Of a stretch of 64,000 bases of DNA, positions 9,617 through 46,316 are shown one piece after another; position 1 is the first letter of the stretch; every line of letters begins with the position of its first letter. A model generated the notes under the pieces. The model saw nothing but the letters and a program-made list of their open reading frames with translations, made no database searches and had not been told where the DNA came from. Source of the DNA: Caldinitratiruptor microaerophilus. Lineage in GTDB: Bacteria > Bacillota > Sulfobacillia > Symbiobacteriales > ZC4RG38. The stretch covers positions 2,666,001 to 2,730,000 of the forward strand of contig NZ_AP025628.1 in NCBI RefSeq assembly GCF_025999835.1, in the 5' to 3' direction. The position numbers and the translations under genes are program-made.

Positions 9617-9685
9617 ACCCGCTTCCCAAGCCTGGTGCGAGAGGTGGGACTTGAACCCACACACCTTTCGGTACAGGATCCTAAA
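9617..9685 (-). repeat. Proximal att site within tRNA-Leu
   Basis: This is the partner of the repeat at 1934-2002, with 63 of 69 positions identical. It covers the 3' half of the intact tRNA-Leu from the anticodon loop through CCA plus about 16 bp of flank. The differences keep the T stem paired in both copies, so the element likely brought its 3' end from a related but different tRNA-Leu gene. Confidence 0.88.
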
Positions 9686-9717
9686 TCCTGCGCGTCTGCC
9701 AGTTCCGCCACTCTCGC
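9633..9717 (-). tRNA. tRNA-Leu (anticodon UAG)
   Basis: The minus strand folds as a class II tRNA: acceptor GCGAGAG/CTCTCGC, anticodon stem CAGGA/TCCTG around loop TTTAGGA (anticodon TAG), variable arm, T arm GTGGG/CCCAC, with CCA encoded. It is the last gene of the six-tRNA operon and the integration site of the 7.7-kb element, whose copy restores its 3' half. Confidence 0.95.
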
Positions 9718-9802
9718 GTACGCCGGAGGGGGCCGGCGAACAGCCGCCGGGGCAGCGGTTCGCTGCCCCGGCACCCTCCGCAGGTCGACGGTGGTTGTCC
9801 GG

Positions 9803-9878
9803 TGGCGGGCCATGTTGGGCTCGAACCAACGACACCCCGCTTAAAAGGCGGGTGCTCTACCAACTGAGCTAATGGCCC
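9803..9878 (-). tRNA. tRNA-Lys (anticodon UUU)
   Basis: The acceptor GGGCCAT/ATGGCCC, anticodon stem CCCGC/GCGGG with loop CTTTTAA, and an encoded CCA give a canonical 76-nt tRNA-Lys. It is fifth of the six tRNAs in transcription order. Confidence 0.95.
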
Positions 9879-9881
9879 GAG

Positions 9882-9957
9882 TGGCTGGGGCGGCAGGACT
9901 CGAACCTACGCATGGCGGATTCAAAGTCCGCTGCCTTACCAACTTGGCTACGCCCCA
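9882..9957 (-). tRNA. tRNA-Gln (anticodon UUG)
   Basis: The acceptor TGGGGCG pairs with CGCCCCA, the anticodon loop CTTTGAA gives TTG, and CCA is encoded. It is separated from tRNA-Lys by only 3 bp, so the two mature from a common precursor. Confidence 0.95.
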
Positions 9958-9978
9958 GTGTGCATGGATGCCCGGTAG

Positions 9979-10055
9979 TGGCGGGCTGTGAGGGACTCGA
10001 ACCCCCAACCTGAGACTTAGAAGGTCCCTGCTCTGTCCAGTTGAGCTAACAGCCC
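9979..10055 (-). tRNA. tRNA-Arg (anticodon UCU)
   Basis: The acceptor GGGCTGT/ACAGCCC, anticodon loop CTTCTAA (TCT) and encoded CCA are all present. About 220 bp of gene-free sequence separates it from tRNA-Gly upstream. Confidence 0.95.
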
Positions 10056-10278
10056 CCAGCCCCGGCGACCTGCGGTACCGGCCAGTCGGATGCAGATGCG
10101 CAGCAGGCCGGAACCGTTCTCCGACCTGCTAACCTGCCATTCGAATCATACCACAGGGGCGGACGCGCTGGCAAGACGGCCTGCCTCCGAGCCCGCTGCC
10201 GGGGCGGTCTCCCGGCGCGCGGCCAGGCACCGGAACGCTTGGGGCCGCCACGCCGGCGGCCCCGGTCAGAACGTCCAG

Positions 10279-10352
10279 TGGAGCGGGTGATGGGAATCGA
10301 ACCCACGTACCCGGCTTGGAAGGCCGGTGCTCTACCATTGAGCTACACCCGC
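10279..10352 (-). tRNA. tRNA-Gly (anticodon UCC)
   Basis: The acceptor GCGGGTG/CACCCGC, anticodon loop CTTCCAA (TCC) and encoded CCA give a canonical 74-nt tRNA. It is second in the operon, 5 bp from tRNA-Pro. Confidence 0.95.
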
Positions 10353-10357
10353 ACGGC

Positions 10358-10435
10358 TGGTCGGGGTGGCCCGATTCGAACGGGCGACCTCAGCGTCCCA
10401 AGCGCTGCGCGCTGACCATGCTGCGCCACACCCCG
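10358..10435 (-). tRNA. tRNA-Pro (anticodon UGG)
   Basis: The acceptor CGGGGTG/CACCCCG, anticodon loop CTTGGGA (TGG) and encoded CCA are present. It is the first tRNA of the operon, starting about 12 bp downstream of the -10 box. Confidence 0.95.
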
Positions 10436-14963: not shown

Positions 14964-15374
14964 TGGTGGAGGCGGCGGGGCACTGCCCCCCGCGTCCGAA
15001 GACCCGCCAGACCGGACCTCTCCGAGCGCAGCCCCGGCTTTCGGTCTCGCCGGACGTGGCCCCCCGGGGCAGGGTCCACGTCCCGCCAGCCCCCGCTTGG
15101 CTTCGCCGGCCGGTCAGGGGCACCCCGGGTGCCCCTTGCGGGGCCCGGGTCCCGTTCGGCTAGCCCACGGTCTGACGCTCAACTCCGGCGCGTGGGCGGC
15201 GGCCCGGAGGAGCGTGCAGTCGCTACGCTAGGGAGCGACTGGGCCGCTCAGGCGGCCAGAGCGAGAGAACGCTCGTTGTCGGCACTTATCGGTTGCCACC
15301 TGATTAACGAGGCGGTGACGACCTCGGCTCGCTGTCCGATCCCGCGGCATCCCCGTCGAACCTGTTTCGCCCCC
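14964..15374 (-). ncRNA. ssrA: Transfer-messenger RNA (tmRNA)
   Basis: The 5' end GGGGGCGAAACAGG with TTCGAC in the D-like loop pairs as GGGGGCG with CGCCTCC at the 3' end, followed by ACCA. The resume codon is GCC, and the tag reading frame encodes ADNERSLALAA then TGA, with the usual LALAA ending recognised by ClpXP-type proteases. The molecule is about 411 nt with GC-rich pseudoknot regions. The T-arm stem CGGGG/CCCCG closes a loop GGCAGTG rather than the expected TTCRANY, which is odd. It lies just downstream of smpB, its protein partner. Confidence 0.9.
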
Positions 15375-37727: not shown

Positions 37728-39164
37728 CTACCCCGTGACCGGTCTGGCCGCAGCCCTTTCCCGGTCAAGTCTGACGGCCCGGTACCGGGCCGCCGCCTGC
37801 ACGAAGCGGCGAGCGGCGTGCGGGTTGGCGACGAAATGCAGGTGCAGGTAGCTCGCCAGAAGCGCCGGGCGGGCGAATCCGTCCTCCTTCCCGTCGACCC
37901 GCCTGCCCCGGAAGCGGTAGGCGGGGGGCCAGTCGGGCGGGTGCGGGTCCGTGACGGACCAGTGGAACTCGTGTCCCAGCACCTCATCCCCGGGGCTTCC
38001 CAGGAGCGTCTCCTGCAGGAACGTCGCCCGGGCGTACCCGAGCGCGGCAAGCCGCGGCTGCATGCGGGCCGAGACCGGCAGGAGGCCCGCCATCGGCCAG
38101 ACCTGCCCGTCCGGATCCACGATCGCCCGGGACAGGTACATGAGCCCGCCACACTCGGCGTAGACCGGCATGCCTGCCCGGTGGGCCGCCTGCACGTCGG
38201 CGCGCAGCTTGTCGTGGGCGGACAGCTCGGCCCGGTACACCTCCGGAAACCCGCCGCCCAGGTAGAGGGCGTCGGTCCCGGGAGGGATCGACTCGCCGGC
38301 CAGGGGGCTGAAAGGAGCCCATTCCACCCCGAGCGCCGCCAGGAGGTCGAGCCCGTCCTCGTAGTAGAAGTGGAAGGCCGCGTCCCGGGCGATGGCGATG
38401 CGGCAGCAACCGGGGGCCGGCCGGTCGGGGAAAGGGCCGGCCCCGTCGGGAACCGTCACCGGACCGGCCGCCCGGGCGATGGCCAGCACCCGGTCGAGGT
38501 CGACCGTCGCCGCCACCGCGTCCGCCACCCGGTCCAGGTAAGGGGCCATGGCCCGGGGGTCCAGGACCGGCACGAGACCCAGGTGGCGCTCGGGCGCCTG
38601 CAGCCCGTCGGCCCGGGGCAGGTAGCCCAGGGCGGGCGGCCCACCGTAGGCGGCCAGGCTTTCCCGCAGGAGTTCGAAGTGGCCCGGGCTGCCGACGCGG
38701 TTGAAGACGACCCCGGCGATCCGCACCCCGGGGTCGAAGGTCGCGTATCCCCGGACCATCGCGGCAGCGCTGCGGGCCATGCCGGAGGCGTCGACCACCA
38801 GGATCACGGGCGCGTCCAGCCAGCGGGCCACCTCCGCCGTGCTGCCGCTGTCGGTGGCCGGGCCCGCGCTGTCGAAGAGGCCCATGACCCCCTCGATGAC
38901 CGCCACGTCCGCCGGGCCGGCCGCCCGGGCGAAGAGGGCGCGCACCAGGTCCTCGCCGCACATCCACCCGTCCAGGTTCCGGCTGGGGCGGCCGGTGGCG
39001 GCGGTGTGGTAGGTGGGGTCGATGTAGTCCGGTCCGACCTTGAACGGCTGCACCCGGAGCCCGCGCCGACGGAGGGCCCGCATGAGCCCCAGCGCCACGG
39101 TGGTCTTGCCGGCTCCGCTCTCCGTACCGGCCACGACAAGGCGTGGCACCCGCATGACCGCCAC
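37728..39164 (-). CDS. cbiA: Cobyrinate a,c-diamide synthase
   Basis: A 478-residue glutamine-dependent amidotransferase. The N-terminal dethiobiotin-synthetase-like ATPase has the P-loop VVAGTESGAGKTTVALGLM and FKVGPDYIDPTYHTAATG. The C-terminal GATase has VYAECGGLMYLSR with the nucleophilic cysteine, a GGGFPEVY element and GHEFHWS. It amidates the a and c carboxylates of cobyrinic acid. It is the second gene of the riboswitch-controlled operon. Confidence 0.95.
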   Translation of the reverse strand: MAVMRVPRLVVAGTESGAGKTTVALGLMRALRRRGLRVQPFKVGPDYIDPTYHTAATGRPSRNLDGWMCGEDLVRALFARAAGPADVAVIEGVMGLFDSAGPATDSGSTAEVARWLDAPVILVVDASGMARSAAAMVRGYATFDPGVRIAGVVFNRVGSPGHFELLRESLAAYGGPPALGYLPRADGLQAPERHLGLVPVLDPRAMAPYLDRVADAVAATVDLDRVLAIARAAGPVTVPDGAGPFPDRPAPGCCRIAIARDAAFHFYYEDGLDLLAALGVEWAPFSPLAGESIPPGTDALYLGGGFPEVYRAELSAHDKLRADVQAAHRAGMPVYAECGGLMYLSRAIVDPDGQVWPMAGLLPVSARMQPRLAALGYARATFLQETLLGSPGDEVLGHEFHWSVTDPHPPDWPPAYRFRGRRVDGKEDGFARPALLASYLHLHFVANPHAARRFVQAAARYRAVRLDRERAAARPVTG

Positions 39165-39465: not shown

Positions 39466-39557
39466 TCAGCGCTCTTCGCCCGGTGCCCCGGGCCCATCCG
39501 GCCAGGAAGACACCATTTCAGCTCCGTCCCCCATCCCGCGAGGGGACCCGAGCCGGA

Positions 39558-39730
39558 ACCGACCGGGCAGGTCTCCTGGCTTGCGGATCCTCACCCTCCG
39601 GCGCCTTCCCATCCAGATCGGACAGTGGCATCTTGCCGGGGACTCCCCGCTCACAGTGGCGCGACCGCGGCGGATTTTCACCGCACTTCCCTTTTCAGCC
39701 CGCACCCGGGGCGCGGGCCACCTGGTCGGC
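39558..39730 (-). ncRNA. Cobalamin (AdoCbl) riboswitch
   Basis: On the minus strand the conserved pieces occur in order: a G/C-rich P1-P3 start, AAAAGGGAA, GTGCGGTGAAAATCCGC, GCGCCACTGTGAGCGGGGA, a second GCCACTG, and the B12 box AGCCAGGAGACCTGCC (39567-39582). It controls the operon from the ferredoxin gene to cobA through the terminator at 39441. High cobalamin should switch the pathway off. Confidence 0.93.
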
Positions 39731-39769
39731 TTCGGTATGCGGTTGATCGGCAGTCGGTGACTCGCCCAG

Positions 39770-39897: not shown

Positions 39898-39926
39898 TTG
39901 CCTCTCTCTGCCGGGTAGCCTACAGT
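39898..39926 (+). promoter_or_regulatory. Promoter of the first fluoride-riboswitch unit
   Basis: TTGCCT (39898-39903) and TACAGT (39921-39926) are 17 bp apart. Transcription would begin about 39933, ten bases before the riboswitch, reading into the dynamin-like GTPase. Confidence 0.55.
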
Positions 39927-39941
39927 AAGAGTTAAGAACAT

Positions 39942-40016
39942 GAGGCGATGGGGCTCGCCGGAAGTGCTGCCACGCAGCTGATGGCCCCTACCCGGGACTC
40001 GGGTAGGGGCCATTTT
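39942..40016 (+). ncRNA. Fluoride (crcB-type) riboswitch with terminator, copy 1
   Basis: The conserved blocks are in order: GGCGATGGGGCTCGCC (39944-39959), GGAAGTGC, then GCTGATGGCCCCTAC (39977-39991). The last block is also the 5' arm of a perfect stem, TGGCCCCTACCC with GGGTAGGGGCCA (39982-40012), followed by TTTT. Fluoride binding should hold the 3' block and prevent the terminator. It precedes the dynamin-like GTPase by about 50 bp. Copy 2 is at 44774-44860 on the other strand. Confidence 0.85.
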
Positions 40017-40064
40017 CCTTGTGTCAGGTACCGCACCACGAGCATGCGCAGGGGGGAAGCGGTC

Positions 40065-41834
40065 GTGGGAACCCGGGCGGCAGGCAACACACGGCTCACC
40101 CGAGTGTGGGAGATCCTGCAGGCCGTTGCGCAAAGGCTGGGAGACCCGGCGGTCAGCGACGCGGTTGCCCGCGCCGGTCGAAAACTGACGGGGAAAGAGT
40201 TCAACCTCGTCGTGCTCGGCCAGTTCAAGCGAGGCAAGTCGACCCTGGTCAACGCCCTCGTCGGCGAGCCGCTGCTTCCGACCGCGGTCGTGCCCCTCAC
40301 CTCCGCCGTGACGATCCTGCGGTCCGGCCCGAAGCCGGAGATGACCGTCCACTTCCTCGACGGGCGCCAGGTACCAGCGCCTGTTCAGGATCTGCCGCTG
40401 TACGTGACCGAGAGAGAAAACCCGCGCAACGTCCGCGGGGTGGGTGCAGTGGAAATCCGTCACCCTTCCCCCTTGCTCGCAGAAGGGGTGCGGCTGGTGG
40501 ATACCCCGGGTGTGGGTTCCGTGTACGAGCACAACACCCGCACCACGCTTCAGTTCCTTCCCGATGCCGACGCGGCCATCTTCGTCCTTTCCGTTGAGCC
40601 GCCGCTCACGGCCGCCGAAAGGGAGTTCCTCGACGAGGCACGGCAGTACGCGGGGAAGTTCCTCTTCGTCCTGAACAAGATCGACGCCCTTTCGCCGGCG
40701 GAAACGGCTGAGAGCCTGGCTTTCACCCGGAGCGTCCTCGAGGAGGCGACCCGGCAGGATTCCGTCCGCCTGTTCGCACTGTCGGCCAGACAGGCCCTGG
40801 AGGCACGGATGGCCGGCGACGCGGACGGGTTGGAGCGAAGCGGGCTCCTCGATCTGGAGAGGGAAATCCGCCGCCTGGTGGTTGCCGATCGCGAAACGGT
40901 CCTCGGGGAATCCGCGCGCCTGGCCCTGGAGCGGGCACTGCTGTCCCTCACCACGGCGCTGACCCTCGAGCAGCAGGCTCTGCGGGTGTCCGCGGAGGAG
41001 ATCCGGCAGCGCCGCGATCGACTGGAAAGATACCTGGCTTCTGCACGCAGCGAGGCGGAGGACCTGGAGCCCCTGATGCGGAGCGGGCTCGCCCGAATCG
41101 TGCAGGAAGCCGACGGGCGACTCCGTCTCTTCCGCCAGAGCCTCGAACCCGACCTTCACGAACGGGCACTGCGGCGGCTGAACGCCACGACCGGAGGGGC
41201 CGCCGAACTCGTGCGCGACCTGGAGAAGTTCCTCGCCGAAAACATCCCCGCTGCGTTCGACCGGTGGATCGCCGAGGAGAACCGGCGGCTCGAAGCAGCC
41301 GTTCGCGCCATGGCGCGGCGGCTCAGCGAGCGGGCGGCTGCGGTGGTGGAAGGGTTCATCGAGCTGGCCGGCACGCTGTTCGCCGTGGAGTTGCCGCCAC
41401 CCCAGCCGGATCCGAACCTGGTCGACGACGTGCGCCTGACCTACCGGATCGGCGAGGACGAGGGGTTCCTCATGCCGCGCTCCGACCGGCTGGTTGCCCT
41501 GTTACCGCGCCCCCTGGCGCTGCGGGTGCTGACGAGCGGTCTCCGCCGGCGGATCGCCGAACAGGTGGACCTCAACGCCGGCCGGGTTCGGGAGAACCTC
41601 GTCGAGCGCCTCGACCAGACCGCCAGGCAGGTGCGGTCCGGTCTCGATGCCTACCTTGAGGCGGCTGCCCTGGGCATCCGGGAAGCACTGACCCGGGCGG
41701 AACGGCTGCAGGAGGAGCGCGGGCCTGCCCTGGAGAGACGGCGCCAGGAGGTGGCCGACGACCTGGCCAGCCTCGCTGAGGCCCGTCGCCTCCTCGAGGA
41801 AGGCGGCCGCGCGCCGGTGGAGCGGACGGGTTGA
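40065..41834 (+). CDS. Dynamin-like GTPase under a fluoride riboswitch
   Basis: A GTG at 40065, 7 bp after AGGGGGGAAG, gives 589 residues; an ATG at 40044 is an alternative. G motifs of the bacterial dynamin-like class are present: G1 VVLGQFKRGKSTLVNAL, G2 threonine in PLTSAVT, G3 VDTPGVGS, G4 VLNKID. After the GTPase domain (to about residue 260) long helices follow, as in BDLP/DynA-type proteins, with a short hydrophobic segment (LVALLPRPLALRVL, about 470-490) that may touch membrane. Family members reshape or protect membranes. Control by fluoride is unusual for this family. Confidence 0.82.
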   Translation: MGTRAAGNTRLTRVWEILQAVAQRLGDPAVSDAVARAGRKLTGKEFNLVVLGQFKRGKSTLVNALVGEPLLPTAVVPLTSAVTILRSGPKPEMTVHFLDGRQVPAPVQDLPLYVTERENPRNVRGVGAVEIRHPSPLLAEGVRLVDTPGVGSVYEHNTRTTLQFLPDADAAIFVLSVEPPLTAAEREFLDEARQYAGKFLFVLNKIDALSPAETAESLAFTRSVLEEATRQDSVRLFALSARQALEARMAGDADGLERSGLLDLEREIRRLVVADRETVLGESARLALERALLSLTTALTLEQQALRVSAEEIRQRRDRLERYLASARSEAEDLEPLMRSGLARIVQEADGRLRLFRQSLEPDLHERALRRLNATTGGAAELVRDLEKFLAENIPAAFDRWIAEENRRLEAAVRAMARRLSERAAAVVEGFIELAGTLFAVELPPPQPDPNLVDDVRLTYRIGEDEGFLMPRSDRLVALLPRPLALRVLTSGLRRRIAEQVDLNAGRVRENLVERLDQTARQVRSGLDAYLEAAALGIREALTRAERLQEERGPALERRRQEVADDLASLAEARRLLEEGGRAPVERTG

Positions 41835-41855
41835 AGAAGCGGGGTGGGAGGCGCC

Positions 41856-42683
41856 GTGACCGACACGCTCGCCGAGTGGGAACTCCGCCAGGCATTCCGA
41901 CACCCAGGATGTCCCATCTGCACCGTGATCCAGAACAACACGGAGCGCTTTTATCGCTGGTTCATCTTGGAAACCTACGGCCAGCTGCCGATGTTGGAAA
42001 CGCTGAGTCGGGGCGGCTTCTGCCCGATCCACGGCTGGGAGGTTGCCGTGAGGGCCGGGCAGCGGATCAGCTTCACCTACGAGTTTGTGGTTCAGGACCG
42101 CGCCGCCCGGCTCCGATCGGCGTTGACTTCCGCGCGGGCGTACGCGTGGTGGCCCGTTTCCGTCCTACGGGCGGCGGCCCTGGGGCGTCGTCTGACCGGC
42201 TGGATGGCCCGGAGACGCCGCGAACGGCTTGCTCGCGCGATCCGCCTTTCTCTGGCGCCCTCTCAGCCATGCCCGGTGTGCGATCAGGTGAAAGGCGACG
42301 AACGATACGCCTATCGGGTCCTCGCCCGCCTTCTCGAGCACGACGAAGAACGAGCGGCTTACCAAGCGTCGGCAGGCCTTTGCTGGCACCACCTCACGGG
42401 CGCGCTCCCCGTGGCCACCCCGACGGTGGCCACGTTTCTTGCCGAGGATGGCCTACGGCGTCTCGAGGCGCTCGGGCAGGACTTTCGGGAGTACTTTCGG
42501 AAACTGGATTACCGCTTCGCATCTGAGCCCCGGGGTGCCGAACAGCGCGCCTGGCTCCAGGCGGCACGGTATCTCGCTCCGATGGGACACCTTCCCGCGT
42601 GCCTGTCCGAAGCCCTGGATCCGAATTCTCCGCTCGGGCCGCTGCTGCGCGAGCGTACGCGGGACCTGGCGGCCAGCACGTGA
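41856..42683 (+). CDS. DUF6062-like protein with paired cysteine motifs
   Basis: A GTG at 41856 after GGGAGGC gives 275 residues. Four Cys/His sites suggest metal binding or disulfides: HPGCPICTVIQ near the N-terminus, GGFCPIHGWE, QPCPVCDQVKGDER in the middle and GLCWHHLTGAL. The rest is helical. This pattern resembles DUF6062, whose function is unknown. It begins 21 bp after the GTPase, so it belongs to the same fluoride-controlled operon. Confidence 0.65.
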   Translation: MTDTLAEWELRQAFRHPGCPICTVIQNNTERFYRWFILETYGQLPMLETLSRGGFCPIHGWEVAVRAGQRISFTYEFVVQDRAARLRSALTSARAYAWWPVSVLRAAALGRRLTGWMARRRRERLARAIRLSLAPSQPCPVCDQVKGDERYAYRVLARLLEHDEERAAYQASAGLCWHHLTGALPVATPTVATFLAEDGLRRLEALGQDFREYFRKLDYRFASEPRGAEQRAWLQAARYLAPMGHLPACLSEALDPNSPLGPLLRERTRDLAAST

Positions 42684-42697
42684 GGAGGGACCCGGTC

Positions 42698-42838
42698 GTG
42701 GTTCGGTACTGTTTGAACTGCTGGTACCCGAACCCGGCCGTACGGGAAAGGGCGGCGGACCTCCTTCGCCTGCGGGCCTGCCTCGACGGCAACAGCGGCA
42801 GTCCCGGCCCACTCAGACCCGGCGATGCCTCGCGGTGA
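42698..42838 (+). CDS. Short CxxC protein at the end of the GTPase operon
   Basis: A GTG at 42698 follows TGAGGAGGGAC and gives 46 residues: YCLNCWYPNPAVRERAADLL with a CxxC, a short helix, and a polar tail. No family is recognised. It is 14 bp from the DUF6062-like gene and its end overlaps the convergent MFS gene by 26 bp. The ribosome site is strong, so it is probably translated. Confidence 0.5.
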   Translation: MVRYCLNCWYPNPAVRERAADLLRLRACLDGNSGSPGPLRPGDASR

Positions 42839-44108
42839 GTTCCCTCTGCAGGAGCAGGAGAAGAGGCACCGCGACGGCTTGTGCCAGCACCGAGAACAGG
42901 ATCACGAGAGCGGTGGATCGGTTGTAGAGGAAGCCCATCGCAGCGCTGCCCACGAACCACGCGACGCCGAAAGCGGTGTTGAAGAGTCCATAGGCCCTCC
43001 CGCGCACCGCAGGGGGCGCCAGGTCGGCGACCGCGGCCCTCATGATCGTTTCCTGGACACCGAGCACCGCGCCCCAGACCACGACGCCCGCCCAGGCCGC
43101 GACGGCGGAACTGCCGAAGGCCAGGACGGTGGCCGGAACGATGCCGAGGGGGAGGGCAAACAGTGCGCCGACGCCCAAGCGATCATAGAGCTTGCCTGCC
43201 ACCACGGCGGCCAGGGCGTCGACTGCCATGGCCACGGCGAAGGCCAACGGAATGACCGGGTCGGGCAGAAGCCCGCGGGCTTTCAGGTGGAACGAGATCA
43301 ACTGAAAGTGGGCAAAACCGAGCACGGCCGTGGACGCAAAGAAGACGTAGAGCCAGAAGTCACGGCCGAGGCGTGGCAAAGTCGCTGCGCCCGGCCCCTC
43401 AAGCTTTGGTTCCGTCCGGTTCCCACCCCGATCGGACGGACTTCCGTCCGGAACTGGGCCTCTCTGCTCACCCGGCCCTTCAAACGCTTCCGGAGCCGGG
43501 AACTGAACCCATGCCGCTGCCAGGGTCGCCAAGGCGAGCAGGGCGGGGATGAGCAACACGGCGAAGCCGCGGCGGTACCCTTCGCCGGCGAAGAGGACAC
43601 TGGCCACCAGAAGGGGGCCCACAACCGCGCCGATCTGGTCCAGGAGCTCGTGCAGCCCGAAGCCAAGCCCTCGCCCGACCGCACGGGTGGCAAAGGAGAG
43701 CATGACGTCCCGGGACGGTGTGCGAACGGCCTTGCCCATCCGCTCGAGGAGGACGAGTCCGGCGGCCACTTCCCACCGCCCCGCCAGGGCGAGCAGGGGA
43801 ACCGCGAGCAGGTTCGTGACGTACCCGAGGGCAGTGAGAAGCCAGTACTGCCGCAACCGGTCGGTCAGATAACCCGACGCGAGCCGGATGGCATATCCGA
43901 GGAACTCCCCGAGCCCGGCAACCACCCCCACCACGCTGGCGCTGGCGCCGAGCGACAGCAGGAACGGCCCGGTGGCGCTGCGCGCCCCTTCATAGGTCAT
44001 GTCAGCAAAAAGGCTGACAATGCCGAGGAGCACGACGAAGCGCATCGCCTGAGCGCGGCGGGCGGTGGCAGACCCACCGAGTGCCGGACCTTCACGTGTG
44101 GACTGCAT
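42813..44108 (-). CDS. MFS transporter
   Basis: The ATG at 44108, 7 bp after GGTGGAGGT, is preferred to an in-frame GTG at 44123. The 431-residue protein has 12 predicted helices. MFS signatures include RLASGYLTDRLRQYWLLTAL (motif A region), ERMGKAVRTPSRDVMLS and GFGLHELLDQIGAVVGPLL. A charged Gly/Pro loop (about 205-240) divides the halves. It lies downstream of the fluoride-riboswitch unit on the same strand after a 250-bp gap, so co-control is possible. The substrate is unknown. Confidence 0.8.
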   Translation of the reverse strand: MQSTREGPALGGSATARRAQAMRFVVLLGIVSLFADMTYEGARSATGPFLLSLGASASVVGVVAGLGEFLGYAIRLASGYLTDRLRQYWLLTALGYVTNLLAVPLLALAGRWEVAAGLVLLERMGKAVRTPSRDVMLSFATRAVGRGLGFGLHELLDQIGAVVGPLLVASVLFAGEGYRRGFAVLLIPALLALATLAAAWVQFPAPEAFEGPGEQRGPVPDGSPSDRGGNRTEPKLEGPGAATLPRLGRDFWLYVFFASTAVLGFAHFQLISFHLKARGLLPDPVIPLAFAVAMAVDALAAVVAGKLYDRLGVGALFALPLGIVPATVLAFGSSAVAAWAGVVVWGAVLGVQETIMRAAVADLAPPAVRGRAYGLFNTAFGVAWFVGSAAMGFLYNRSTALVILFSVLAQAVAVPLLLLLQRELTARHRRV

Positions 44109-44374
44109 CCGCGTGACCTCCACCGAAAAGGTGCTGCCTCAGTCCGGCTCTTGCCCTGGCCGGACCCAGCGTGACCGGTCGCTTGGTCACCTCGCTCATG
44201 GCGCGCAGACCTTGTGGCAGCCTTGCAGCTATGTTCGCCGCCCGAACCGGACTCCACGCAACCCTCCACGGTGGTCGCGCGGTTTCGGCAGGGAATCCGC
44301 CACCCGGGTCCGGAAACCCGGAAATCGGGGGGTGCCCGCTGCGTTAGACAGGACGCCGGTGAAACCACTACCGG

Positions 44375-44563
44375 CTACGAACGCGGCCGGTCGTGGAGCA
44401 GGGCAAACACCCCGGTGGCCACAAACCACACAACGATGCCGCCGACCCAGGCGGCAGCCGTACTCCGTATCCCCAACCTTGGAATCAGAAGACCGGCCAT
44501 GGCGATCGTCCCTGTAGTAATCGCCCACAAGGTGAGAAACCGGGGCCAGCTGAGCCGCCGCAT
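44375..44563 (-). CDS. 62-residue membrane protein under a fluoride riboswitch
   Basis: The ATG at 44563 follows TGGAGGGGAACGCG. The 62 residues contain two membrane helices (RFLTLWAITTGTIAMAGLLI and AAAWVGGIVVWFVATGVFAL) and a charged tail. It is too short for the usual four-helix Fluc/CrcB fluoride channel and lacks its motifs. It is the second ORF downstream of the minus-strand fluoride riboswitch. Confidence 0.65.
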   Translation of the reverse strand: MRRLSWPRFLTLWAITTGTIAMAGLLIPRLGIRSTAAAWVGGIVVWFVATGVFALLHDRPRS

Positions 44564-44637
44564 CGCGTTCCCCTCCACTGGCGCCGGGCGGTTGGACAAC
44601 TGCTGCGTGCAACGCTTCACGCGGTAAGCCCAGCGTC

Positions 44638-44715
44638 CTACCGTGCGCACACGGCCGCCGCAAGCGCCGGGACCAAGATGCCCCAGTTCCATGGACCCGC
44701 CCCCTCAGACGACAC
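44638..44715 (-). CDS. 25-residue hydrophobic peptide under a fluoride riboswitch
   Basis: A GTG at 44715 follows the very strong site AGGAGGGGGAGGTGCAACA. The peptide is short: a polar start (SSEGAGPW) then a helix-like NWGILVPALAAAVCAR. It is the first ORF after the terminator of the second fluoride riboswitch. It may be a membrane micropeptide or a leader that sets ribosome entry to the 62-residue gene. It is too short to judge by similarity. Confidence 0.45.
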   Translation of the reverse strand: MSSEGAGPWNWGILVPALAAAVCAR

Positions 44716-44773
44716 TGTTGCACCTCCCCCTCCTGGATCGGGACCACCGCGGGATCCCACGGTCCCTCGGAAC

Positions 44774-44860
44774 AAAAAACCGATAGCCCCTACCCTTCAC
44801 CGGAAAGGGTAGGAGCTATCAGCTGCGCAGGCAGCGGTTCCGGCGAGCTCCATCGCCTGC
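44774..44860 (-). ncRNA. Fluoride (crcB-type) riboswitch with terminator, copy 2
   Basis: On the minus strand: GGCGATGGAGCTCGCC (44842-44857), GGAACCGC, then GCTGATAGCTCCTAC ending near 44810. The stem GATAGCTCCTACCCTT with AAGGGTAGGGGCTATC, followed by GTTTTTTG, is an intrinsic terminator. It is the same architecture as 39942-40016, with different terminator loops. It controls the small membrane proteins and perhaps the MFS gene. Confidence 0.88.
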
Positions 44861-44864
44861 CGTG

Positions 44865-44894
44865 ATTCTACCACAAACCTCACCGCCGATGAAA
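44865..44894 (-). promoter_or_regulatory. Promoter of the second fluoride-riboswitch unit
   Basis: On the minus strand TAGAAT (44865-44870) is preceded by TGTGG as an extended -10, with TTTCAT (44889-44894) 18 bp upstream. The expected start falls a few bases before the riboswitch. Confidence 0.6.
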
Positions 44895-45098: not shown

Positions 45099-46316
45099 GT
45101 GACCCGGGAGCCAGCCGAACCATCGGGGATTGCCGCGCCCGTCCGCTATCGGGACCTGAGCCCGGCGGCAAAGCGAGAACGGTTGCGGGAACTGGCGCTT
45201 CTGTTCCTGAAACTGGGGACTATCTCCTTCGGCGGCCCCGCCGCCCACATCGCGATGATGAACGAGGAGGTGGTGAAACGCCGCCAGTGGGTGGATCAGC
45301 AAACGTTTCTCGACCTCCTGGGAGCCACCAACCTCATCCCGGGTCCGAACTCAACCGAACTCGCCATCCACATCGGCTACGAGCGGGCCGGATGGCGAGG
45401 GCTGATCGTCGCCGGGGCGTGCTTCATCCTGCCGGCCATGCTCGCCGTTTGGACGCTGGCGGCGGTGTACGCCAGGTACCGGACCGTGCCCGAAATCGGT
45501 TGGCTGCTCTACGGGGTCAAGCCGGTGATCATCGCGATCGTACTGCAGGCCCTCTGGGGTCTGGGAAAGTCCGCTATCAAGAACGTGCCGACGGGCGTGG
45601 CCGCCGTCCTCGTGATCTCTCTTTCGCTCGTGGGTCTGCACGAAATCCTCCTGCTGTTCCTGGCCGGTCTCGCCGTGATGGTCGTGACCAGCTGGCGGGC
45701 CATCGTAACCCGCACCGGGGTCGGATCGTGGGTCATCCCCATACCGGGTCTGCTCACGCAGGCCGCCATCGCACCGTTGGCGGCCTACGACCCGACGCTG
45801 CCCAGGGTCTTCGGGTTCTTTCTGAAGATCGGATCCATCCTTTACGGGAGCGGGTACGTGCTCCTGGCGTTCCTTCAGAAAGACCTGGTCGACCGCTGGC
45901 ACTGGCTCAGCTCTCAGGAGTTGCTCGATGCCGTGGCGATCGGTCAGTTCACCCCCGGCCCGGTCTTCACCACGGCGACGTTCATCGGGTACTTGCTGGC
46001 AGGGAACGCGGGCGCCATCGTCGCTACCCTCGGGATCTTCCTGCCATCCTTCGTCTTTGTCGCGGCCATCAATCCCTGGGTCCCGAAGCTCCGCCGCTCA
46101 CCCTGGGCGGCCGGGTTTCTCGACGGCATCAACGCCGCTTCCCTGGCGCTCATGGCGGTCGTCACCTGGACACTCGCACGAGCGGCACTGATCGATCCGT
46201 TGACGGTGGCCATCGCGCTCGTCAGCCTCGTGGCGCTGTTCCGTTTCAGGGTGAACTCGGCCTGGTTGATCCTGGCCGGCGGCGCCCTCGGCGCGCTGTC
46301 CCGCGCCCTGCTGTGA
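45099..46316 (+). CDS. chrA: ChrA-family chromate transporter
   Basis: A GTG at 45099 after GTGGAGGTG gives 405 residues: two homologous CHR domains joined by a loop. First half: LFLKLGTISFGGPAAHIAMM, FLDLLGATNLIPGPNSTELA. Second half: FFLKIGSILYGSGYVLLAFL, LLDAVAIGQFTPGPVFTTAT. The FGGP and PGP motifs are typical of long-chain ChrA exporters. The substrate may be chromate, sulfate or another oxyanion. It is the last intact gene before the right att site. Confidence 0.92.
   Translation: MTREPAEPSGIAAPVRYRDLSPAAKRERLRELALLFLKLGTISFGGPAAHIAMMNEEVVKRRQWVDQQTFLDLLGATNLIPGPNSTELAIHIGYERAGWRGLIVAGACFILPAMLAVWTLAAVYARYRTVPEIGWLLYGVKPVIIAIVLQALWGLGKSAIKNVPTGVAAVLVISLSLVGLHEILLLFLAGLAVMVVTSWRAIVTRTGVGSWVIPIPGLLTQAAIAPLAAYDPTLPRVFGFFLKIGSILYGSGYVLLAFLQKDLVDRWHWLSSQELLDAVAIGQFTPGPVFTTATFIGYLLAGNAGAIVATLGIFLPSFVFVAAINPWVPKLRRSPWAAGFLDGINAASLALMAVVTWTLARAALIDPLTVAIALVSLVALFRFRVNSAWLILAGGALGALSRALL

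Follow-up and report, generated by a model that had tools for sequence, protein, structure and literature searches.

What do two fluoride riboswitches control when the module between them encodes neither of the fluoride exporters, CrcB (Fluc) and CLC-F? The question is raised by a 64,000-nucleotide stretch of the Caldinitratiruptor microaerophilus genome (NZ_AP025628.1, positions 2,666,001 to 2,730,000; hereafter the window), in which two facing riboswitches of the crcB motif bracket genes for a dynamin-like GTPase, a DUF6062 protein and a major facilitator superfamily (MFS) transporter. Established targets of fluoride riboswitches are exporters, antiporters, pyrophosphatase and enolase (PMC11139923), together with mutS (PMC2864571). 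We conclude that the locus is probably a fluoride-stress island whose dynamin/DUF6062 pair serves as a dedicated, riboswitch-controlled effector. Comparison with related loci gives good support to the regulation and to the place of these genes in an island; the biochemical function we infer.

Two riboswitches and the dynamin/DUF6062 pair

The initial annotation had read the two leaders as fluoride riboswitches from their motifs. Its coordinates and motif reading were right, and a covariance check with the Rfam model RF01734 (fluoride riboswitch, crcB motif; gathering cut-off 34 bits) placed both leaders above the cut-off. The regulatory elements are as follows:

39935-39997 (+), fluoride riboswitch aptamer 1 (RF01734): cmscan 44.0 bits, E 6.5e-9; 61 bits by our own 29-sequence model
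39980-40014 (+), intrinsic terminator of aptamer 1, overlapping its 3' pseudoknot strand: 16-pair hairpin, tail TTCCTTGT
44803-44866 (-), fluoride riboswitch aptamer 2 (RF01734): cmscan 52.3 bits, E 1.2e-11; 67.5 bits by our own model
44778-44824 (-), intrinsic terminator of aptamer 2, with which it overlaps: 20-pair hairpin and T6 run, tail TTTTTTGTTCC

In an alignment of 29 aptamers from the window and related loci, 98.3% of the cells in P1 and the pseudoknot were paired, the compensatory changes in these helices reached a level attained by none of 500 shuffles, and pairing fell to 46-62% in slid controls. The window copies themselves differ in a compensatory manner (GGGGC/GCCCC versus GGAGC/GCTCC). 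The two riboswitches are ordinary members of the known class. The overlapping terminators that had been proposed were also borne out, since in both leaders the 3' pseudoknot strand of the aptamer doubles as the 5' arm of the terminator hairpin; folded alone, these hairpins reach -31.5 kcal/mol (z -6.2) for aptamer 1 and -25.5 kcal/mol (z -5.2) for aptamer 2. Transcriptional ON switches of the crcB motif are known to be built with such an overlap (PMC2864571). Since each aptamer overlaps a strong terminator, the leaders have the anatomy of transcriptional ON switches, and from established knowledge of the motif, fluoride-dependent readthrough into both transcripts would be expected.

The gene order described behind both switches was confirmed: switch 1 (+) is followed by the dynamin gene, the DUF6062 gene and a 46-aa open reading frame (ORF), and switch 2 (-) by a 25-aa ORF, a 62-aa ORF and the MFS gene. 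The two genes on which our argument turns are:

40065-41834 (+), dynamin-like GTPase, 589 aa: GTG start, Shine-Dalgarno (SD) sequence AGGGGGG; Pfam Dynamin_N
41856-42683 (+), DUF6062 protein, 275 aa: PF19538

The dynamin gene is the first behind switch 1 and starts 50 nt after the terminator. Its product matches PF00350 (Dynamin_N) with 97.8 bits, and has the G1-G4 motifs, with P-loop GQFKRGK[ST], DTPG and NKxD invariant. The dynamin profile matches the bacterial dynamins BDLP (2j68, E 2e-45) and IniA (6j72, E 2e-26), and an AlphaFold2 (AF2) model (pLDDT 82) is closest to IniA, BDLP and mitofusins, with a predicted long helical stalk that corresponds to those of IniA and BDLP. The tip region (residues 440-500), where membrane binding would be expected, is only weakly hydrophobic and partly of low confidence in the model. 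Judging from its family, the protein would act at the cytoplasmic membrane. The genome encodes no second Dynamin_N protein of full length; two further matches span the P-loop region alone.

The DUF6062 protein matches PF19538 with 40.1 bits (cut-off 27) over residues 1-232, i.e., nearly its full length. It carries two CxxC...CxxH sites (C19, C22, C56, H59 and C139, C142, C176, H179), which are spaced alike, as if duplicated, and all eight residues are invariant in 8 and in 13 homologues. From these residues, the sites probably bind zinc. The AF2 model is all-helical (pLDDT 84), and no clear solved relative emerged: Foldseek gave no match at E < 0.001, and the best VIA Z was 5.2, neither of which tells whether the fold is novel. 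Since the two genes are adjacent both in the window and in the related locus L054, DUF6062 is a likely partner of the dynamin. A hairpin resembling a terminator (10 pairs, tail TTTCTT) lies inside the DUF6062 coding region at 42410-42434 (+).

Linkage to fluoride aptamers across genomes

Three surveys bear on whether this arrangement is a local accident. Across the class, 61 genomes were searched with protein profiles for dynamin and DUF6062, and for aptamers. Dynamin was found in nine genomes, with one match each, and all nine matches lie near a fluoride aptamer; four of these genomes are outside the profile, among them G026 and G042, where dynamin is the first gene behind the aptamer. DUF6062 gave 14 matches in 11 genomes (five outside the profile), all 14 near an aptamer, and in G024, G040 and G058 the match begins no more than ~150 nt from it. 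The convergent plan itself recurs in G008, a member of another family, where a switch with a DUF6062 fragment and dynamin faces a Na+/H+ antiporter with its own switch; this antiporter clusters with the Pfam-typed antiporter of L041. Within the window's own family, G001 and G002 have CrcB, and no aptamer, dynamin or DUF6062 match was found in them.

For DUF6062, a protein-only scan covered 84,980 species, each represented by a single genome. The scan returned 14 loci, from Bacillota (including one Desulfofundulus), a deltaproteobacterium, Thermomicrobium, its relative Bacterium HR28, Chloroflexi and Armatimonadetes, and our own model found an aptamer on the contig in 13 of them (weakly in L053 and L064). 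Among the 12 newly met DUF6062 loci, seven had an aptamer above the Rfam cut-off. For dynamin, a protein-only search in a sample of 299 genomes from across the phylum yielded 31 further genomes, spanning many families. In 24 of the 31, an aptamer on the dynamin's strand lies no more than 3 kb upstream, and in 13 the distance is at most 117 nt. If the background is set generously, at five aptamers in every genome, the binomial probability of 24/31 is below 1e-29, a figure that is overstated because it is not corrected for kinship. Fifteen control loci not chosen for island genes (CLC, MFS outside islands and one CrcB) included none with an aptamer. As far as sequence comparison can tell, the association of dynamin and DUF6062 with fluoride aptamers is not local chance; by the same comparison, dynamin probably belongs to the phylum's fluoride regulon as a dedicated member, as does DUF6062, both within the phylum and beyond it.

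The company kept in these islands is that of fluoride stress. Neighbours include CrcB (often with DUF190), Na+/H+ antiporters, universal stress proteins (USP), enolase, membrane H+-pyrophosphatase (H+-PPase), MutS-like pairs, HEAT proteins and MoxR/DUF58/DUF4129 sets. In L119 and L054, one aptamer is followed by dynamin, DUF6062, CrcB and DUF190, all on one strand; this aptamer scores weakly (25.5 bits by our own model, under the Rfam cut-off). MoxR, mostly with DUF58 and in several cases with DUF4129, recurs in L042, L046, L052, L074, L075, L087, L122-L124, L126 and L135, with the set directly behind the aptamer in several of these. Pairs of ~500-aa proteins, of which the typed one carries MutS domain V, recur in L048, L049, L050, L126, L130, L138, L144 and L145.

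Exporters, the minus strand and competing explanations

The module had been described as free of Fluc and CLC-F, and neither CrcB nor CLC-F was found in it by our searches. Three fluoride aptamers occur in the single-contig genome of 3.6 Mb, and the third, at C1:3513664, lies 0.8 Mb from the module and precedes CrcB (C1:3513832; riboswitch and gene together C1:3513664-3514194), which is followed by a P-II-like DUF190 gene (126 bits; whole locus C1:3513664-3514605, L033 5665-6606). The one CLC match of the genome (C1:975091) lacks the CLC-F signature GNNLI/GMGLI, taken from PMC11139923. Since the third riboswitch precedes CrcB, the organism is not without an exporter, and the module is an additional fluoride-controlled locus. 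The suggestion of a new response system apart from CrcB therefore finds no support: a riboswitch-controlled CrcB is present in the same genome, and L054 and L119 combine dynamin, DUF6062, CrcB and DUF190 on one strand behind one weakly scoring aptamer. We read the locus as adding new effector families to the known fluoride regulon, not as a response system of its own.

On the minus strand the target is less clear. The remaining genes of the module are:

42698-42838 (+), 46-aa CxxC ORF: no family assigned
42813-44108 (-), MFS transporter, 431 aa: MFS_1, 121 bits
44375-44563 (-), 62-aa two-helix ORF: good SD sequence GGAGGGG; no relatives found
44638-44715 (-), 25-aa ORF: GTG start; no relatives found

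The initial annotation had counted all of the small ORFs among the controlled genes. Dynamin and DUF6062 stood as targets on the plus strand; for the 25-aa and 62-aa ORFs, no relative turned up among ~180 fetched loci, and both were dropped as parts of a conserved system. The 46-aa ORF has one weak match (40% over 30 aa, E 0.04): it resembles the N-terminal zinc ribbon (CPYCWSPN) of a zinc-ribbon/HEAT protein encoded in the fluoride islands L054 (4175, -) and L119 (4928-5440, +), and may be a truncated remnant of such a protein. The MFS gene, named earlier as a doubtful target, is more credible on the minus strand than the small ORFs, yet less certain: that it is the last gene of the switch 2 transcript is plausible. 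Its orthologues are 44-57% identical, several lie inside fluoride islands, and in L127, L134 and L142 they adjoin dynamin. A search of the 265-nt MFS leader for a further RNA element gave no Rfam match up to E 1.

How, then, might these genes act together? Hydrogen fluoride (HF), a weak acid, acidifies the cytoplasm on entry and reduces the proton-motive force; changes in membrane integrity are also listed among the effects of fluoride (PMC11139923). Rising intracellular fluoride, bound as Mg-F, would stabilise each aptamer, and the stabilised aptamer would block the overlapping terminator so that RNA polymerase reads on, at switch 1 into the BDLP/IniA-type dynamin and the DUF6062 protein with its two putative zinc sites, and at switch 2, on the opposite strand, into the MFS transporter. 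The GTPase would assemble on the cytoplasmic membrane under HF entry, acidification and loss of proton-motive force, and would seal or remodel it with DUF6062 as a zinc-stabilised partner. The MFS transporter, or elsewhere the antiporter and the H+-PPase, would restore ion and proton balance, and CrcB would expel fluoride. We offer this division of labour tentatively, as a reading of the protein families that falls a little short of even chances.

Several observations weigh against the island reading or its parts. The survey counts exceed the number of independent events, since some of the genomes are close kin, and seven of the 31 dynamin genomes have no nearby aptamer (two matches are on contigs of at most 5 kb, three others are tandem-dynamin pairs of a different type, and the remaining two lie beside an antiporter and a USP). 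The MFS family is often found outside islands, being inside them in roughly 10 of the 31 phylum genomes, and the path from switch 2 to the MFS gene spans two unsupported small ORFs and 265 nt. The membrane role, finally, is read from family resemblance, and a GTPase with such a fold might have a different role.

In GTPases, fluoroaluminates act as mimics of the gamma-phosphate, and dynamin and DUF6062 might instead be extra or replacement copies of fluoride-sensitive housekeeping proteins, the cell making more of a GTPase that GDP-AlFx or Mg-F has locked. Enolase and pyrophosphatase, which occur in the same islands, have been proposed to follow this logic of overproduction against inhibition (PMC11139923). 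However, this genome and most of the relatives checked encode no further full-length Dynamin_N protein, and dynamin is missing from G001, a near relative that has no island; the protein is thus not a duplicate of an essential one, and we regard this explanation as unlikely. It has about the same low probability, in our judgement, that the MFS transporter (elsewhere an NhaP-type antiporter) itself exports fluoride while dynamin and DUF6062 merely organise the surrounding membrane. Such an exporter would suit the 15 of the 25 aptamer-bearing class genomes that have no CrcB, eight of which also lack CLC-F signatures, and the MFS gene does sit in several islands; yet CrcB is present in the genome of the window, orthologues of the MFS transporter are often found outside islands with no aptamer nearby, and a profile of four MFS sequences gave no match among solved structures at E 1e-5, so that no substrate could be read from it. 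The eight genomes (G008, G010, G026, G032, G033, G041, G043 and G051) are those of the 15 that were checked: CLC was absent from G008 and G026, occurred as sub-threshold fragments in G032 and G041, and had the canonical GGSxGxEGP in G010, G033, G043 and G051. They are 93-99% complete, so that assembly gaps could explain single cases and, less easily, all eight. Considering that one of the two exporters is present in most bacteria surveyed (PMC11139923), and since these nearly complete, aptamer-bearing genomes, several of them with island genes, have no CrcB and no CLC-F signatures, a further mechanism of export or tolerance may exist. That dynamin, DUF6062 and the MFS transporter or antiporter form a resistance machine able to work without Fluc or CLC-F, be it as a novel exporter or as a dynamin-run tolerance without export, seems rather unlikely, though less so than either of the two preceding alternatives.

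Dynamin-like GTPases also occur in phage defence (LeoA/LeoBC, DynA), and a defence module with incidental fluoride aptamers would fit the matches of the GTPase to the PADLOC models LeoA (61 bits) and LeoBC (48 bits), as well as the protection of Bacillus subtilis from phage by DynA (PMC8844932). These Leo matches reflect the shared dynamin core. One GTPase weakly matches both models and the adjoining gene is DUF6062, and neither a LeoA and LeoBC gene pair nor a complete Leo system was found; moreover, the neighbours are fluoride-stress genes and the aptamer linkage is far too regular, which leaves a defence role very improbable. Still less probable is that the leaders resemble the crcB motif and sense another ligand: riboswitch classes can change specificity, but here the core and pseudoknot fully match the fluoride class, and the same class precedes CrcB in this genome.

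Other features of the window lie outside the island. The chromate transporter gene chrA (45099-46316, +) was considered as a member and rejected, as it points away from switch 2 and had no relative in the first 20 aptamer loci; a half-size ChrA relative adjoins an aptamer in L054 and L119 alone (L054 4335-4895, -, downstream on the same strand). A cobalamin riboswitch (39549-39740, -; 126 bits), ~200 nt from switch 1, apparently heads a minus-strand cluster with a ferredoxin-like ORF of 75 aa and a gene resembling cobyrinate amidase (37728-39155). Six clustered tRNA genes and one tmRNA gene lie at 9636-10435 (-) and 14964-15374 (-).

Relation to known systems

A riboswitch-controlled dynamin/DUF6062 pair would give two families whose roles are open, a bacterial dynamin clade and the probably zinc-binding DUF6062, a concrete inducer and a cellular context. 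A dedicated dynamin kept under riboswitch control also suggests that the membrane disturbance caused by fluoride is large enough to call for one. In addition, the aptamer-bearing genomes with neither exporter family make other resistance mechanisms directly testable.

With the crcB-motif regulon (PMC2864571; PMC11139923), the locus shares the aptamer class and the ON logic of terminator overlap, and related loci hold the partner genes of that regulon (CrcB, Na+/H+ antiporter, enolase, pyrophosphatase and MutS). In contrast, those two papers name neither dynamin nor DUF6062 nor MFS as targets. The new part is the controlled dynamin/DUF6062 pair, its novelty being judged against the same papers and text searches of open-licence papers, in which no report of fluoride-riboswitch control of bacterial dynamins was found. 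DUF6062 (PF19538), an uncharacterised family, is here tied to fluoride switches in 13 of the 14 loci that the protein-only scan returned. The window protein shares the Dynamin_N GTPase and, by prediction, the long helical stalk of BDLP (Nostoc), IniA (mycobacteria), the Campylobacter dynamin-like protein pair and DynA, the last of which gathers at damaged membranes in B. subtilis (PMC8844932). Unlike these bacterial dynamins, it is a single-copy protein of 589 aa that is encoded behind a fluoride riboswitch and paired with DUF6062.

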